Counted from the first letter of the stretch, positions 42,097-49,315 are shown. The stretch is 53,544 bases of DNA from Chlorobiaceae bacterium (GCA_013334755.1 JAAXWX010000009.1:1-53544), one strand, 5' to 3'. Numbers and translations: made by a program. Notes: generated by a model not told the origin, from the sequence alone.

Positions 42097-42570
42097 ATGG
42101 CTCGTTATACCCCGGAACAGTTGGCTAAAAGAAACGCTTCCATATGGACTGATATCCAGATTATTCTTGCTCCGATACAGTTTCTTTTTTTTGTTGCTGG
42201 TGTTGCCATAACAGCTCTTTATGCAAACACTCTTTTTGTCACCAGTTTTTACTGGGTCAGTATAGTTATTCTGTTTAAAACGCTCTTTTTTGCCCTTCTT
42301 TTCATAACAGGCATGTTTTTTGAGAAGGAGGTGTTTGATAAATGGGTCTACTCAAAAGAGTTTCTGTGGGAAGACATCGGAAGTACTGTCGCAGCAGTGT
42401 TTCATCTTCTCTATTTTTTCATGGCCTACCTGGGTTATCCCGAACAAGTGCTTATCTGGGAAGCTTTTCTTGCCTATTTCACCTATGTACTCAATGCGTT
42501 GCAGTACCTGATCAGGATTATCCTTGAAAAACTCAACGAACGGAAACTTCGGATTGATGGTCAAATCTGA
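42097..42570 (+). CDS. bchV: 3-vinyl (bacterio)chlorophyllide hydratase BchF/BchV
   Basis: This integral membrane enzyme adds water to the 3-vinyl group in bacteriochlorophyll synthesis. The 157-residue protein has the family start [19 protein letters not shown], then helices with [11 protein letters not shown], a [14 protein letters not shown] loop and EFLWEDIGS, and about four membrane segments. Green sulfur bacteria have two paralogues, BchF and BchV. I prefer BchV because, as I recall, its gene lies near the RLP gene in Chlorobaculum tepidum, which matches the order here; this is from memory. It has a 275-base upstream gap after recX and is followed by a small membrane protein. Confidence 0.85.
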
Positions 42571-42608: not shown

Positions 42609-42827
42609 ATGAAATACAGTTTTAGAAGACTCTGGAATACCATGTTTTTGTTTGTCGGGCCAGCCTGGTATCTCCTTGTTTGGATGATCTGGTCTTCCGG
42701 CCAGTTGCAGACCATCGGTGACAAGATCTTGTTTCTTGGAATTGTGATTCCCGGGTTTCTCTTTATCTATAGCTCGGGCTTTTTAATTGAAGGGTGGCAT
42801 GAAAACAAGAAAAAAGGGAGATACTGA
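42609..42827 (+). CDS. Small two-helix membrane protein next to bchV
   Basis: A 72-residue protein of unknown family with two predicted membrane helices (TMFLFVGPAWYLLVWMIW; ILFLGIVIPGFLFIYSSGFL) and basic ends (KYSFRRLW at the start, ENKKKGRY at the end). The hydrophobic pattern and Trp/Phe content look like a genuine small membrane protein. It starts 38 bases after bchV, so it may be cotranscribed and could be an accessory of the hydratase or of pigment delivery. Confidence 0.7.
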   Translation: MKYSFRRLWNTMFLFVGPAWYLLVWMIWSSGQLQTIGDKILFLGIVIPGFLFIYSSGFLIEGWHENKKKGRY

Positions 42828-42906: not shown

Positions 42907-45024
42907 ATGCAGAACCTTTGGAATGACGTTGAACTTCAACGCTCCGTAAGCGAGCAGTGCAGTTCATCCGACATGCAGGCAGAACTTGCTGAGCTGGTCT
43001 ATGCGTCCCATCTGCTAGGCAGTGAAAGTTCGCTGGTGATGCACGGCGGAGGTAATACCTCAGTCAAATGTGAACTGGTGGATATGGTTGGCAACCGTGC
43101 TGAAGTCCTCTTGATTAAAGCAAGCGGTGTCGATCTCAGCCGTGTTTCGGGTTGTGATTACACCCCGCTTCGGCTTGGCCCTCTGCGCAAACTTGGTGCA
43201 CTCTTCAGCCGCAACGATCTGGTAAGCGAAGAGGCACTTCGGCGGTTTTCAACGAAAGAGTTCAAACATCTTCTGCTCTTGAACATGTTCAGTCTGACTG
43301 ACCATATGGATGAGCACCGGCTTACTCCTTCGATTGAAACCCTCCTTCACGCCTTTCTGCCGCACAAGTTTATTTTTCATACCCATTCATTCGCCTTGCT
43401 TACCCTCAGCAATCAGCCTGATGGCGACAAGCTTTGCAGGGAAACGCTTGGAGAAAGCTTCGGCTCGGTGCCCTATATCAAGCCCGGTCTTGGTCTTGCC
43501 CGTTCGGCAGCAGTTGTTTATGAGGCAAAACCTGATATTGAAGGTCTTGTGCTTCAAAAACATGGTCTGGTTACTTTCGGAGCCACAGCCAAAGAGGCAT
43601 ACAGTCGTATGATCGAGGCTGTCAGCACGCTTGAAGCGCGTATTGCTGCCGCAGGAAGGAAAACGTTTCCATCAATAACGTTGCCGGCGGAGATTGCTTC
43701 GATTGAAGTGGCGGCTCCTGTGATCAGGGGAGCCTGTGTTGATGAAAAGGCCCCCGGTACGCGTGAGTTTCATCAGTTTATTCTTGATTTTCGTACCTCG
43801 CAGGCTATTCTGGACTATGTTAACAGTTCCGATCTTTTGCGGATGAGTCAAAAGGGTGCAATGACTCCTGATTTTATTATCCGGACCAAGAACAGGCCAT
43901 TGGTCGTTCCTGCTCCTGATGCCAGCGATATTCCGGGATTCAAGGTCGCGGTGCATGAAGCTGTTCAGCGATATCGTCAGGAGTATACTGCTTATTTTAA
44001 TGCCCAGCAGAAAGCTGCCGGTATGAAGGTAACCATGCTTGATCCGTTGCCAAGAGTTGTGCTTGTTCCCGGACTGGGATTGTTCGGGCTCGGTAAAAAC
44101 GCTGAATCAGCCGCAGTCAATGCCGATATTGCAACAGGTACAGCCTCGGCCATCCTTGATGCCGAATCAGTCGGCAACTTTGAATCTATCACTGACCGTG
44201 AAGCTTTTGAGATAGAGTACTGGGACATGGAGCAGGCCAAGGTGACCAAAGTTCACCATGACGTTTTTGCAGGAAAAATCGTTATGGTTACAGGCGCAGC
44301 AAGCGGCATCGGTCTGGCGACAGCCAAAGCCTTCCGCCAGAAAGGGGCTGAACTGGTTATTCTCGATCTGACCAGGGAGGTACTTGATCGTGCCGTTGAA
44401 GAACTCGGCGGTAACGTCCTTGCCCTCACTTGTGATGTTACGTCAAGGGTCGAAATCCAGGCAGCTTTTGATTCTGCCTGCCGTCGGTTTGGTGGTGTAG
44501 ACATTATCGTTTCCAACGTTGGTGCTGCCATTCAAGGCCGTATCGGTGATGTTTCCGATGAACTGCTGCGTAAAAGCTTTGAGCTGAACTTTTTTTCACA
44601 TCACTCCATTGCTCAGGCAGCTGTCAGGGTTATGAAACTTCAAGGCACTGGTGGTGTGCTCCTGTTCAACGTTTCAAAACAGGCCGTCAATCCAGGACCA
44701 GACTTCGGACCTTACGGCCTGCCAAAAGCTGCGACCATGTTTCTTGTGCGTCAGTATGCGCTTGATCATGGCCGTGATGGCATCCGTTCAAACGGTATAA
44801 ATGCCGACCGTATTCGCAGTGGTCTGCTTACAGAAGAGATGATCAGAGCTCGTTCTACAGCCCGGGGTCTGAGTGAAAAGGAGTATATGGCAGGAAACCT
44901 TCTGCAGCTTGAGGTGACAGCTGAAGATGTTGCAGAAGCCTTTGTCCATCTTGCACTTGAAACCAGAACCACCGGTTCAATTACCACTGTGGATGGTGGC
45001 AATATTGCAGCCGCACTCCGCTGA
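42907..45024 (+). CDS. Bifunctional class II aldolase / short-chain dehydrogenase (RhaEW-like)
   Basis: This 705-residue fusion joins a class II (zinc) aldolase domain and a short-chain dehydrogenase. Zinc ligands are visible as His158 and His160 (FHTHS) and His219 (KHGLVTFG). The dehydrogenase has TGAASGIG at 462-469 and Tyr603/Lys607 in YGLPK. The closest characterised architecture is rhamnulose-1-phosphate aldolase/lactaldehyde dehydrogenase, but no rhamnose isomerase or kinase is nearby. It lies first in a run of plus-strand genes containing an LsrF-like aldolase and RLP. Cleavage of a phosphorylated ketose followed by oxidation of the aldehyde is the expected chemistry; the substrate is unknown. 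Confidence 0.88.
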
Positions 45025-45080
45025 ACCAAAGAAAGAGTAGAGATATAACAATCACAACAGAAAAGAGGAGAACAGTCATT

Positions 45081-45962
45081 ATGGCGGAATACGATAAAGA
45101 CAAACAAGCTAAAGAGTATTACCTTGATACTCCGATTAATAACTACGGTTTTTTTCTGAAAGGAGCACACTCGCTTGACTGGGGCATGAAAAACCGTCTG
45201 TCGAGAATATTCCGTCCGGATACCGGAAAAACAGTTATGCTTGCTATCGATCATGGCTACTTTCAGGGTCCGACCACTGGTCTTGAACGTCCCGACGTTA
45301 ATATTGTCCCGCTCATGCCTTATGCTGATGCAATCATGCTGACCCGCGGTATTCTGCGTACAACTGTTCCCCCGAGCCTCACCAGGGCGGTCGTCATGCG
45401 CTGCAGCGGAGGTCCGAGTATTCTCAAAGAGCTGTCAGATGAAGAGCTTGCCGTTGATATCGAGGATGCCATTCGTATGAACGTTGCAGCAATAACCCTT
45501 CAGATATTTATTGGAGGCGAATTTGAGACCCGCTCTATTCATAACATGACAAGGCTTGTCGACATGGGCCTGCGTTACGGTATTCCAACCATGGCTGTTA
45601 CAGCAGTTGGCAAAGATATGGTACGCGATTCCAAATATTTCAGGCTTGCCTGCAGGATGGCTGCTGAGCTTGGTGCCCAGATTGTCAAAACGTATTACGT
45701 GCCTGAAGATTTCGATACAGTTGTCGCTTCGTGTCCAGTGCCGATTGTCATGGCTGGTGGTAAGAAACTACCTGAGCTCGAAGCACTCACAATGTCACGG
45801 CGTGCTATTGACGAAGGTGCTTCAGGTGTTGATATGGGTCGCAATATTTTCCAAAGCGATGCTCCACTTGCCATGATGAAAGCGGTTAACAAGGTCGTAC
45901 ATGAGCAGATGAGTCCGCAGGATGCTTTTGATTATTTCAATACCATAAAAGCTGAAGGGTAA
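45081..45962 (+). CDS. LsrF-like class I aldolase/thiolase
   Basis: A 293-residue TIM-barrel enzyme of the DeoC/LsrF/FbaB-like group. E. coli LsrF acts on phosphorylated AI-2 breakdown product, using a Schiff-base lysine. Here Lys203 in [13 protein letters not shown] is the likely equivalent, with [10 protein letters not shown] near residue 54-63 and [12 protein letters not shown] binding phosphate at the C-terminal end. Length matches LsrF. No lsrK or lsr transporter is nearby, so AI-2 processing is unlikely to be its only job. A good AGAGGAGAA site precedes the ATG. Confidence 0.85.
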
Positions 45963-46083
45963 TCGCCTAAAGTGATGCAATCGCTGCAGCAGGCTTGATG
46001 GTCTGTTGCGGTAATCTTTAACAGTTCTATTTTCTTAATTGGCACCTTTTTGCTGCGCCCGGCGGGCCGGAAGAGTGGGGGTT

Positions 46084-46107
46084 ATGACTTTATTCTATGA
46101 ATACTGA
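46084..46107 (+). CDS. Possible seven-codon leader ORF overlapping the RLP start
   Basis: ATG with a GGGGG site three bases upstream opens a frame MTLFYEY that stops inside the first codons of the RLP gene. RLP's own ATG at 46097 has no close ribosome-binding site, so coupled translation through this mini-ORF is possible. It could equally be chance. Confidence 0.22.
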
Positions 46108-47398
46108 GGATATTAAAGGGTTTTTCGCCTCAAGGGAGCAGCTTGAAATGGCTGATTACCTGACGCTTGAATACTACCTGGAGTGCGTGGGAGATATTGA
46201 GACGGCGCTTGCCCATTTTTGCAGTGAACAATCTACGGCACAATGGAAACGTGTAGATTATGATGAAGATTTCCGTCCGAAGTATGCTGCAAAAGTTATC
46301 AGTCTGACGATAGAAAAAGAGCTTCCTGCGCTCAGTTATCCGGTACTTCATTTTGAAACAGGTCCGATCCATGCATGCCGAGTCACCATTGCTCACCCTC
46401 ATCGCAATTTTGGCGCAAAACTGCCGAATCTGCTCTCAGCCGTCTGCGGAGAAGGAGTTTTTTTTACCCCCGGAGTTCCGGTGGTAAAGCTGCTGGATAT
46501 CAGTTTTCCAGAGTCTTATCTGATGGCTTTTGACGGTCCGAAATTTGGAATTGAGGGTATCCGTGATCTTTTGCAGGCCTATAATCGTCCGATTTTTTTC
46601 GGAGTTGTGAAGCCGAATATCGGACTCAGCCCTGCACATTTTGCCGAAATCGCTTACCAGAGCTGGCTTGGCGGGCTTGATATCGCCAAAGATGATGAAA
46701 TGCTCGCTGATGTTGACTGGTCGACACTTATCGAACGTTCTCATGCTCTTGGAGAGGCCAGATTACGAGCTGAAAAGGAGACTGGGGAACCGAAAATATA
46801 TCTTGCCAACATCACCGATGAGGTTGATCGACTGATTGAGCAGCATGATATTGCCGTCACTAACGGGGCAAATGCCCTGCTTATTAATGCTCTTCCTGTC
46901 GGGCTCAGTGCAGTCAGAATGCTTGCCCGACATACGAAGGTTCCTCTTATCGGGCATTTCCCGTTTATCGCTGCCTTCAGCAGGATGGAAAAATATGGAA
47001 TTCATTCAAGAGTTATGACCAAGCTTCAGCGTCTTGCAGGTCTTGATTCCATTATCATGCCTGGTTTCGGCAGCAGGATGATGACTCCTGAAGAGGAGGT
47101 AAAGGAAAATATCGAGGAGTGTCTGCAGGAGTTTGGCCATATCAAGCGTTCACTTCCCGTACCGGGAGGTAGCGATTCAGCGCTTACGCTTGAAACGGTC
47201 TACAGGAAAGTAGGCTGTGTAGATTTTGGTTTTGTACCTGGTCGCGGGATTTTTGGTCATCCTATGGGTCCTAAAGCTGGGGCAGCCAGTATCCGTCAGG
47301 CATGGGAGGCAATTGAGCAGGGCATTCCCCTTGAAAGCTATGCAGTCGGCCGCCCGGAACTTGAGGTGATGTTTGACGGGGTGAAAAGAAAACAGTAA
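46097..47398 (+). CDS. Type IV RuBisCO-like protein (RLP)
   Basis: A 433-residue homologue of the RuBisCO large subunit that should not fix CO2. The carbamylation lysine is kept (Lys198 in AKDDE with Asp200 and Glu201), as is Lys172 (KPNIG). RuBP-binding positions differ: the second lysine of KPKLG is Asn174, the Arg of the HRAMH motif is Phe288 (GHFPF), the loop-6 lysine region reads GFGSRM, the serine of SGG is Pro (VPGGSD), and the GGG phosphate loop is GRG. Mutants of the Chlorobaculum tepidum homologue are known to be affected in sulfur oxidation and stress, yet its reaction is unknown. It sits in a cluster with two aldolases and two dehydrogenases. Confidence 0.95.
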
Positions 47399-47424
47399 GC
47401 AGCAGAAAAGAAAGCCGTTTTCTC

Positions 47425-48249
47425 ATGGGTATACTTGATAATAAGGTTGCCGTTATTACCGGTTCCACCAGAGGAATCGGTAAAGCCATTGCTCATGAGT
47501 TTGTTCGTCAGGGGGCAAGGGTGGTTATCACCTCCTCTTCGGCAGTCAATGTTCATGAGGCTGTTGAGGAATTTCCTCCTGACACGGCATATGGCTGTGT
47601 CTGTGATGTTGTTTCGACTGCCGATATCGAAAAGCTTATTGCCGAAGCAGTCATCAGATTTGGTCGGATTGACTGCTTTATCAATAATGCCGGGATTTCC
47701 GATCCATTCAAAAACATTACAGACAGCGATCCTGAAGTGTGGGGAAGGGTCATTGATACCAATCTTAAAGGAACCTATAACGGGTGTCGTTCAGCGATTG
47801 GTTATTTTCTCAGGGAAAACATTCCGGGAAAGATCATCAATATGGCGGGTTCCGGTACTGACCCGGGCTCCAATACACCCTGGACGAGTGCCTATGGTTC
47901 TACCAAAGCAGCCATAGCCCGTTTTACCTTTGCGGTTGCTCAAGAATACAAACATACCGGTATTTCTGTCATGCTGCTTCATCCCGGTCTTGTCAGGACC
48001 GGGATGGTCAGTGCCGATAACCCTACACCCGAATTGTCCCGGCAATTGGCTACGTTCAACACCATCCTTGATATATTTGCCCAGCCGCCAACGGTTGCAG
48101 CGAAGCTTGCGGTACGATTGGCTTCATGCTGGAGTGACTCAAAAACCGGTATTTATCTCTCGGCGCTTCATGGAAGAAGAAAAAAATGGTTGCTCTTCAC
48201 CTATTCCTTCCGTAAAATACTTAACAGGATTGATCGCCGAACCTATTAA
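47425..48249 (+). CDS. Short-chain dehydrogenase/reductase
   Basis: A 274-residue NAD(P)-dependent classical SDR. The nucleotide motif TGSTRGIG is at 12-19, NNAG near 88-91, and the catalytic Tyr157/Lys161 in AYGSTK. The cofactor is not certain; the Arg at the TGSTRG position often accompanies NADP preference. It begins 26 bases after the RLP stop and is in the same strand run, so it may act on the RLP product. It then runs into lptE after 14 bases. The basic C-terminus (RRKKWLLF) is unusual and suggests a membrane or nucleic acid contact. Confidence 0.88.
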   Translation: MGILDNKVAVITGSTRGIGKAIAHEFVRQGARVVITSSSAVNVHEAVEEFPPDTAYGCVCDVVSTADIEKLIAEAVIRFGRIDCFINNAGISDPFKNITDSDPEVWGRVIDTNLKGTYNGCRSAIGYFLRENIPGKIINMAGSGTDPGSNTPWTSAYGSTKAAIARFTFAVAQEYKHTGISVMLLHPGLVRTGMVSADNPTPELSRQLATFNTILDIFAQPPTVAAKLAVRLASCWSDSKTGIYLSALHGRRKKWLLFTYSFRKILNRIDRRTY

Positions 48250-48263
48250 CACCGAGGATTGTC

Positions 48264-48773
48264 ATGCTGAAAGCAGCTTTCCCCATCCGCATGCTTTTAT
48301 TTCTTGTACTTGCGATCCTTCAGGGCTGTTACAGCTTTACAGGATCTTCTCTGCCTGCGCATCTCAAAACCATTGCAATTCCAGTTTTTGAAGATCGTTC
48401 CGGTGCAGGTATCGCACAGTTAAGAGGAGAGCTTACCGGCGGGCTTGTCAATAAAATAGAGTCGCAAAGCACACTTCGCTTTACCCCATTCATTGCCCGT
48501 GCCGATGCAATGCTGGAAGGATCTATCATCTCTTTTGCGGATGCTCCGAGCCAGCTCTCCAGTAAAACCGAGCGTGCAATAACAAACAGGGTTACGCTTG
48601 TCGTGCAGGTGACGATGGTAGACAGGGTGAAAAAAACACCGATTTTTGCGCAATCGTTTGTCGGATTTGCTGATTATCATACAGGTGACTATGTCAATCA
48701 GCAGAAGGCTCTCCGATATTGCGTCAGCCAGATTGTCGATGATATTTATGACCAGATTGTTTCCGGATGGTGA
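48264..48773 (+). CDS. lptE: LptE-family lipopolysaccharide-assembly lipoprotein
   Basis: LptE is the outer-membrane lipoprotein plug partner of LptD, which inserts lipopolysaccharide. The 169-residue protein has signal peptide and lipobox LQGC (Cys22), followed by the short conserved segment TIAIPVFEDRSG and a GSIISF strand typical of the DUF-type LptE in this phylum. It sits 14 bases after the SDR gene with a GAGG ribosome-binding site. The low sequence conservation of this family leaves slight doubt. Confidence 0.85.
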   Translation: MLKAAFPIRMLLFLVLAILQGCYSFTGSSLPAHLKTIAIPVFEDRSGAGIAQLRGELTGGLVNKIESQSTLRFTPFIARADAMLEGSIISFADAPSQLSSKTERAITNRVTLVVQVTMVDRVKKTPIFAQSFVGFADYHTGDYVNQQKALRYCVSQIVDDIYDQIVSGW

Positions 48774-48883: not shown

Positions 48884-49315
48884 ATGGGATTTCAGAAGGA
48901 TGTTGAATATCGTCTTGAACTTGCCCGAGGATTTTTGAATGAAGCAGAACAGGATTACTCCCTCAAACGCTGGCGGGCTTGTGTTTCCGGCAGTATACTT
49001 GTTCTTGAAAATACCGGTCTTGCCGTGCTGATGCTTTTTGGAGTATCTCCTCTTACTCATAAACCTGGCAGGCATTTATATCAGCTTATATCCGAAGGAA
49101 CTGTTCCGGATGAGATTACCAAACGAATAGAAGAGATTCTTCCTGAGCTGGACAAGCACGATTCCTATGAAAAAATGCTCGCGAAGTATGGCGATGAAGC
49201 GGAATACCGGTTGCCCTGGGAGCTTTTTACTGAGCATGAAGCGTTATCTACGATAGAGGCTGCGCGAAAAAGTATGCGTGTATGCTCTGAAATTGCTGAA
49301 TTAACTGCGCAATAA
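48884..49315 (+). CDS. HEPN-domain protein
   Basis: A 143-residue all-helical protein with a HEPN-like pattern: a long first helix (VEYRLELARGFLNEAEQDY), a WRACVSGSILVLENTGLAVLML helix pair and a C-terminal helix bundle. HEPN proteins often act as RNases in toxin or defence systems with an MNT nucleotidyltransferase. Here no MNT gene is adjacent, and the catalytic RxxxxxH-type motif is not visible (no Arg lies 5-7 residues before a His). A perfect GGAGG precedes the ATG. It may be a non-catalytic HEPN with a binding role. Confidence 0.7.
   Translation: MGFQKDVEYRLELARGFLNEAEQDYSLKRWRACVSGSILVLENTGLAVLMLFGVSPLTHKPGRHLYQLISEGTVPDEITKRIEEILPELDKHDSYEKMLAKYGDEAEYRLPWELFTEHEALSTIEAARKSMRVCSEIAELTAQ

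Follow-up and report, generated by a model that had tools for sequence, protein, structure and literature searches.

We analyzed a stretch of 53,544 nucleotides (hereinafter, the window) that represents contig 58 of the 2.1 Mb draft genome (103 contigs) of a green sulfur bacterium of the family Chlorobiaceae, and focused on four open reading frames (ORFs), all on the plus strand and free of frame problems, that occupy positions 42907-48249. The first of these genes encodes a fusion of a class II aldolase with a short-chain dehydrogenase (SDR), which we denote FUS, and the second one encodes an LsrF protein; the two remaining genes encode a RubisCO-like protein (RLP) and another SDR. The preliminary description of this DNA had named the same four products, in agreement with the Pfam and NCBIfam families and the coordinates. 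With moderate confidence, we propose that FUS and LsrF (42907-45962) constitute the terminal module of a salvage pathway for 5'-deoxyadenosine, and probably also for 5'-methylthioadenosine (MTA). On the best reading of the evidence, this module is a previously unrecognized variant of the dihydroxyacetone phosphate (DHAP) shunt.

FUS (42907-45024, plus strand; 705 amino acids) consists of an Aldolase_II domain (PF00596, residues 29-243, positions 42991-43635) and an adh_short, that is SDR, domain (residues 457-698, positions 44275-45000), and matches the NF006193 profile with 1367 bits (cut-off 1213). Both active sites are intact: the aldolase domain retains the invariant metal-site motifs, namely SIET with its Glu, HTH, and KHGL with its His, and the SDR domain retains the TGxxxGIG motif (here TGAASGIG), the Ser and the YxxxK motif. 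LsrF (45081-45962, plus strand; 293 amino acids) belongs to the DeoC/LacD family and represents the class I (Schiff-base), coenzyme A (CoA)-dependent thiolases; it scores 508 bits against the NF006081 equivalog (cut-off 297), shares 60% identity, including the invariant Lys203, with Escherichia coli LsrF, and retrieves the structure 3GLC with 391 bits in a PDB search.

Three independent lines of evidence point to the product of MtnA, the isomerase of the DHAP shunt, as the substrate of FUS. First, across the 98 genomes of the class, class II aldolases show a complementary distribution. FUS is the sole PF00596 protein in each of the 78 genomes that encode it, whereas a single stand-alone class II aldolase is encoded in each of the 11 Chloroherpeton-like and outgroup (f3/f4) genomes that lack FUS; both forms are missing in nine draft Chlorobiaceae genomes, in several of which the cluster is broken at contig ends. 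FUS would thus stand in for the usual stand-alone class II aldolase of the shunt (DrdA/Ald2). The stand-alone aldolases match the DrdA structure 6BTD with 99.6 bits and a FucA with 111, values that do not separate DrdA from FucA. In two RLP-less relatives of Chlorobia (L083:1480-3223 and L085:1480-3216), the stand-alone aldolase gene is followed by a gene resembling low-specificity threonine aldolase, another acetaldehyde-linked enzyme.

Second, the genome that contains the window encodes MtnA. The preliminary description had noted that no isomerase of methionine salvage is present in the window, which is indeed the case; mtnA is located on another contig (C19:8250-9131; 379 bits to TIGR00512, cut-off 279), where it directly adjoins the only nucleoside phosphorylase gene (PF01048) of this genome. 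Third, the same fusion family is encoded together with mtnA, MTAP or mtnK in eight loci of unrelated bacteria, where it holds the position of the shunt aldolase. In five of these loci (Woeseia, Methylopila, Chelatococcus, an alphaproteobacterium and Rhizobium sp. Q54), FUS immediately follows mtnA; the Rhizobium locus has the arrangement MTAP-mtnA-FUS, in which both MTAP and FUS exceed their cut-offs. In the other three loci, on rhizobial-type plasmids, FUS is accompanied by mtnK and by genes for a sugar ABC transporter and a sugar-binding regulator, and in two of them mtnA can be seen next in line. In a tree of 30 fusions, the mtn-linked members are found on several branches, and the fusions of green sulfur bacteria form a clade of their own. 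In four loci of Gemmatimonadales (L197, L198, L201 and L207), an amidohydrolase related to MTA/5'-deoxyadenosine deaminases, with scores below the curated cut-offs, is encoded approximately 1.2 kb downstream of the fusion.

From the combination of the mtnA-phosphorylase pair, the complementarity of the aldolases and the linkage to mtn genes in other bacteria, we infer that FUS quite probably processes a sugar of the 5-deoxyribulose-1-phosphate type, 5-methylthioribulose-1-phosphate included. The earlier suggestion that the aldolases handle a phosphosugar is thus retained for FUS and LsrF, as a module that leads to DHAP, and is abandoned with respect to RLP. The fusion might act on a thio-sugar, the substrate favored there, but the better match is 5-deoxyribose originating from radical-SAM (S-adenosylmethionine) enzymes. 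BchQ, BchR and BciD, which participate in the synthesis of chlorosome pigments, are radical-SAM enzymes (PMC7242693), and enzymes of this type are inhibited by 5'-deoxyadenosine (PMC6079011). Under the proposed scheme, the radical-SAM enzymes of bacteriochlorophyll synthesis would give off 5'-deoxyadenosine, which the nucleoside phosphorylase and MtnA would turn into 5-deoxyribulose-1-phosphate. Two genomes (G026 and G047) carry a second FUS-LsrF pair, away from the main cluster and without RLP (L043:7414-12549 and L044:8439-12735), beside a paralog of bchF and next to a gene that fits the description of bciD, which encodes a radical-SAM protein and clusters with a bchF paralog (PMC3613366); we regard this linkage as supporting evidence only. 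A transposase-like gene is also close to the second FUS copy in L044. A literature search turned up no 5'-deoxyadenosine disposal route for green sulfur bacteria.

The substrate of E. coli LsrF is 3-hydroxy-2,4-pentadione-5-phosphate (P-HPD). By our own structural reasoning, P-HPD is 5-deoxyribulose-1-phosphate with an oxidized C4 hydroxyl, so that an SDR and LsrF together could yield DHAP and acetyl-CoA; a passage of PMC7828210 that cites Marques et al. states that E. coli LsrF splits phosphorylated autoinducer-2 (AI-2) into these two products. Most likely, then, the SDR domain of FUS would oxidize the C4 hydroxyl of 5-deoxyribulose-1-phosphate to form P-HPD, and LsrF would cleave P-HPD with CoA to DHAP and, presumably, acetyl-CoA; the aldolase domain of FUS would either provide a non-oxidative branch, to DHAP and an aldehyde, or assist in this reaction. 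The homologous fusion RhaEW forms neither DHAP nor lactate when NAD+ is omitted (PMC3870299), and by analogy this requirement would fit either oxidation prior to cleavage or a pull on the unfavorable aldol cleavage, for which the equilibrium constant is about 10^-4 (PMC6079011). We rate the succession of oxidation and thiolysis as a possibility a little below even, and the full proposal, namely that 5-deoxyribose salvage in green sulfur bacteria follows such an oxidative, CoA-dependent course, is slightly more tentative still.

The closest known system is the DHAP shunt, which comprises MtnN or MtnP, MtnK/DrdK, MtnA/DrdI and Ald2/DrdA, and with which the proposed pathway shares a genome-encoded MtnA, the presence of just one class II aldolase, the expected formation of DHAP and, perhaps, the phosphorylase step. 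Because this genome encodes the fusion as its sole PF00596 protein, in place of a stand-alone aldolase of the DrdA/Ald2 type, we consider the pathway a variant of the shunt rather than a standard member. It further differs in that this distinct, SDR-containing aldolase is paired with the LsrF thiolase, that the C2 product is probably acetyl-CoA as opposed to acetaldehyde, and that the genes are not clustered in green sulfur bacteria.

Several observations weigh against this interpretation. The phosphorylase encoded next to mtnA is of the purine-nucleoside phosphorylase type (386 bits, cut-off 218) and falls below the cut-off for MTAP (73 bits against 275), so that activity toward 5'-deoxyadenosine is either uncertain or dependent on prior deamination, and in the window genome the FUS-LsrF and phosphorylase-mtnA pairs are located on different contigs. 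The gene bciD is present in 9 of the 98 genomes and has the second FUS-LsrF pair beside it in only two of these nine, for which reason we rejected the linkage to bciD as a general rule. Relatives of FUS also occur in rhizobial polyol and sugar operons that contain no mtn genes, and LsrF was not seen in the mtnK-mtnA-FUS loci. Furthermore, in Sagittula, LsrF is paired with the aldolase half alone, an arrangement that speaks for the importance of the aldolase domain and makes oxidation as the first step less likely. We are not aware of any assay of such a FUS or LsrF on 5-deoxyribulose-1-phosphate.

The Sagittula locus and the mtnK-mtnA-FUS loci devoid of LsrF are the reasons to keep an aldolase-first version of the pathway under consideration, in which FUS would split 5-deoxyribulose-1-phosphate into DHAP and acetaldehyde, its SDR domain would oxidize or reduce the aldehyde as in RhaEW, which yields DHAP and lactate in vitro (PMC3870299), and LsrF would act on a separate substrate or as an ordinary class I aldolase. 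The intact aldolase site of FUS is compatible with this version. Nevertheless, we consider it unlikely, given that LsrF is tightly kept beside FUS in green sulfur bacteria, is paired with it again in Pseudolabrys (where LsrF scores 483 bits) and with a related fusion in Shinella, and, in the window, scores far above the equivalog cut-off. The plasmid loci of Shinella (L216:8001-16876) and Sagittula (L217:1618-6947) additionally encode an FGGY kinase and a glycerol-3-phosphate dehydrogenase/oxidase, possibly as part of a deoxypentitol catabolic route. Elsewhere, LsrF is found beside a Zn-dehydrogenase and a VOC protein (G209 and G293) or beside DhaK/DhaL (G358, Aureibacter and Parabacteroides).

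The preliminary description had placed all four genes in a single pathway, in which RLP would rearrange a phosphorylated (thio)ketose, the aldolases would cleave it, and the SDRs would oxidize or reduce the products. The comparison of gene orders, which had been set beforehand as the refuting test, went against this reading in Chloroherpetonaceae, where the four genes are scattered; in Chlorobiaceae, they travel together, which speaks in its favor. The complete string bchF-orf72-FUS-LsrF-RLP-SDR-LptE is present in 49 of the 64 fusion loci of green sulfur bacteria, most of the others being cut by contig ends, and this conservation in Chlorobiaceae is well beyond chance. Within the string, the median gaps are 55 bases between FUS and LsrF, 124 between LsrF and RLP, 27 between RLP and SDR, and 14 between SDR and LptE; thus, the longest spacing sets FUS-LsrF apart from RLP-SDR-LptE. 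Among Chloroherpetonaceae, one genome (G087) carries FUS and LsrF, RLP, and SDR with LptE on three separate contigs, and in another (G086), RLP and SDR are 1.4 Mb apart, with both FUS and LsrF absent. LptE adjoins SDR in five of the seven outgroup loci, including genomes without RLP, FUS and LsrF. Because the parts separate in Chloroherpetonaceae, second FUS-LsrF pairs exist without RLP, and the SDR-LptE pair is found in RLP-less genomes, the cluster consists of three modules: FUS with LsrF, RLP, and SDR with LptE. We judge that the latter two merely became adjacent to FUS-LsrF; the SDR (47425-48249, plus strand; 274 amino acids, adh_short) was rejected as a pathway enzyme because it tracks LptE, and both it and RLP would be outside the salvage route.

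Of the other genes in this neighborhood, bchF (42097-42570, plus strand), which encodes 3-vinyl bacteriochlorophyllide hydratase, is kept upstream of FUS-LsrF in Chlorobiaceae, and the gene for the LptE-like lipoprotein (48264-48773, plus strand) is the constant downstream neighbor of SDR. Between bchF and the fusion, nearly all Chlorobiaceae retain orf72 (42609-42827, plus strand), which encodes a hydrophobic protein of 72 amino acids that belongs to no Pfam family. A HEPN-domain protein is encoded downstream of LptE (48884-49315).

RLP (46097-47398, plus strand; 433 amino acids; RuBisCO_large) matches the C. tepidum RLP structures 1TEL and 1YKW with 764 and 762 bits, respectively, and Rhodopseudomonas palustris RLP2 (2QYG) with 673 bits, and is therefore of the Photo type and orthologous to C. 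tepidum RLP. The slow 1,3-isomerization of 5-methylthioribulose-1-phosphate by R. palustris RLP2 in vitro, discussed in a passage of PMC5893883, would favor its inclusion in the pathway; the same source ascribes to RLP2 at most a negligible contribution to MTA metabolism, on which ground we rejected such a role for RLP. Together with the separation of the modules, this makes the four-gene pathway improbable, and the part of that reading that concerns sulfur and RLP finds no support. The C. tepidum RLP insertion mutant reportedly shows a pleiotropic phenotype; this might be partly a polar effect on SDR and LptE, which is conceivable because just a few bases separate RLP, SDR and LptE from one another (46097-48773 in the window).

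There is no sign that RLP acts with FUS or LsrF; the recurring neighbor of RLP elsewhere is YjbQ (UPF0047). The yjbQ gene directly adjoins RLP in both Chloroherpetonaceae loci (L038:8994-10727 and L041:8804-10536), and the photosynthesis gene cluster of the purple sulfur bacterium Candidatus Thiodictyon syntrophicum has the order puf-idi-YjbQ-RLP-crt (L218:7579-9314). Within the class, UPF0047 is missing from a single RLP-bearing genome, a 77%-complete draft, and the 10 RLP-less f3/f4 genomes all lack it; outside the class, the family is widespread. YjbQ is therefore a candidate for the true functional partner of RLP, and a literature search for an RLP-YjbQ link found no paper. A large gene beside RLP in Chloroherpetonaceae was considered as BchH and rejected, the product being an alpha-amylase-type protein.

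The fusion could also be considered a RhaEW, that is, L-rhamnulose-1-phosphate aldolase/L-lactaldehyde dehydrogenase involved in L-rhamnose utilization, with which it shares the two-domain architecture and a match to TIGR02632 (RhaD_aldol-ADH). This match, at 447.7 bits, is below the equivalog cut-off of 567.75, the gene neighbors are different, with mtnA or mtnK linked to the fusion in other phyla, and salvage is the better fit for both the complementarity of the aldolases and the phosphorylase-mtnA pair; no rhamnose kinase or isomerase gene was found near the cluster in the loci examined, RhaA and RhaB not having been searched in the rest of the genome. A rhamnose role, rejected on the score and the mtn linkage, is very improbable. 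A role of LsrF in the breakdown of phosphorylated AI-2 (P-DPD) is hardly credible despite its similarity to the E. coli enzyme with the same catalytic Lys203, because none of the 98 genomes encodes LuxS, so that AI-2 is not the source of the LsrF substrate, and no lsr operon surrounds the gene in the loci examined, its partner being FUS. We also rejected LsrF as a gluconeogenic fructose-bisphosphate aldolase (115 bits to NF040816, cut-off 430; absent from G086).

The abundant bacteriochlorophyll of green sulfur bacteria is made via radical-SAM enzymes, which can be expected to release plenty of 5'-deoxyadenosine, a compound that inhibits these very enzymes. The present proposal names enzymes for the recycling of this by-product and ties to it LsrF, the AI-2 thiolase. 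If its oxidative form is correct, LsrF would have a role independent of quorum sensing, P-HPD having been known so far as an intermediate of AI-2 breakdown, and these autotrophs would recover all five carbons of the radical-SAM by-product. The Photo-type RLP, in turn, is removed from its presumed pathway and gains a new recurrent partner, YjbQ.

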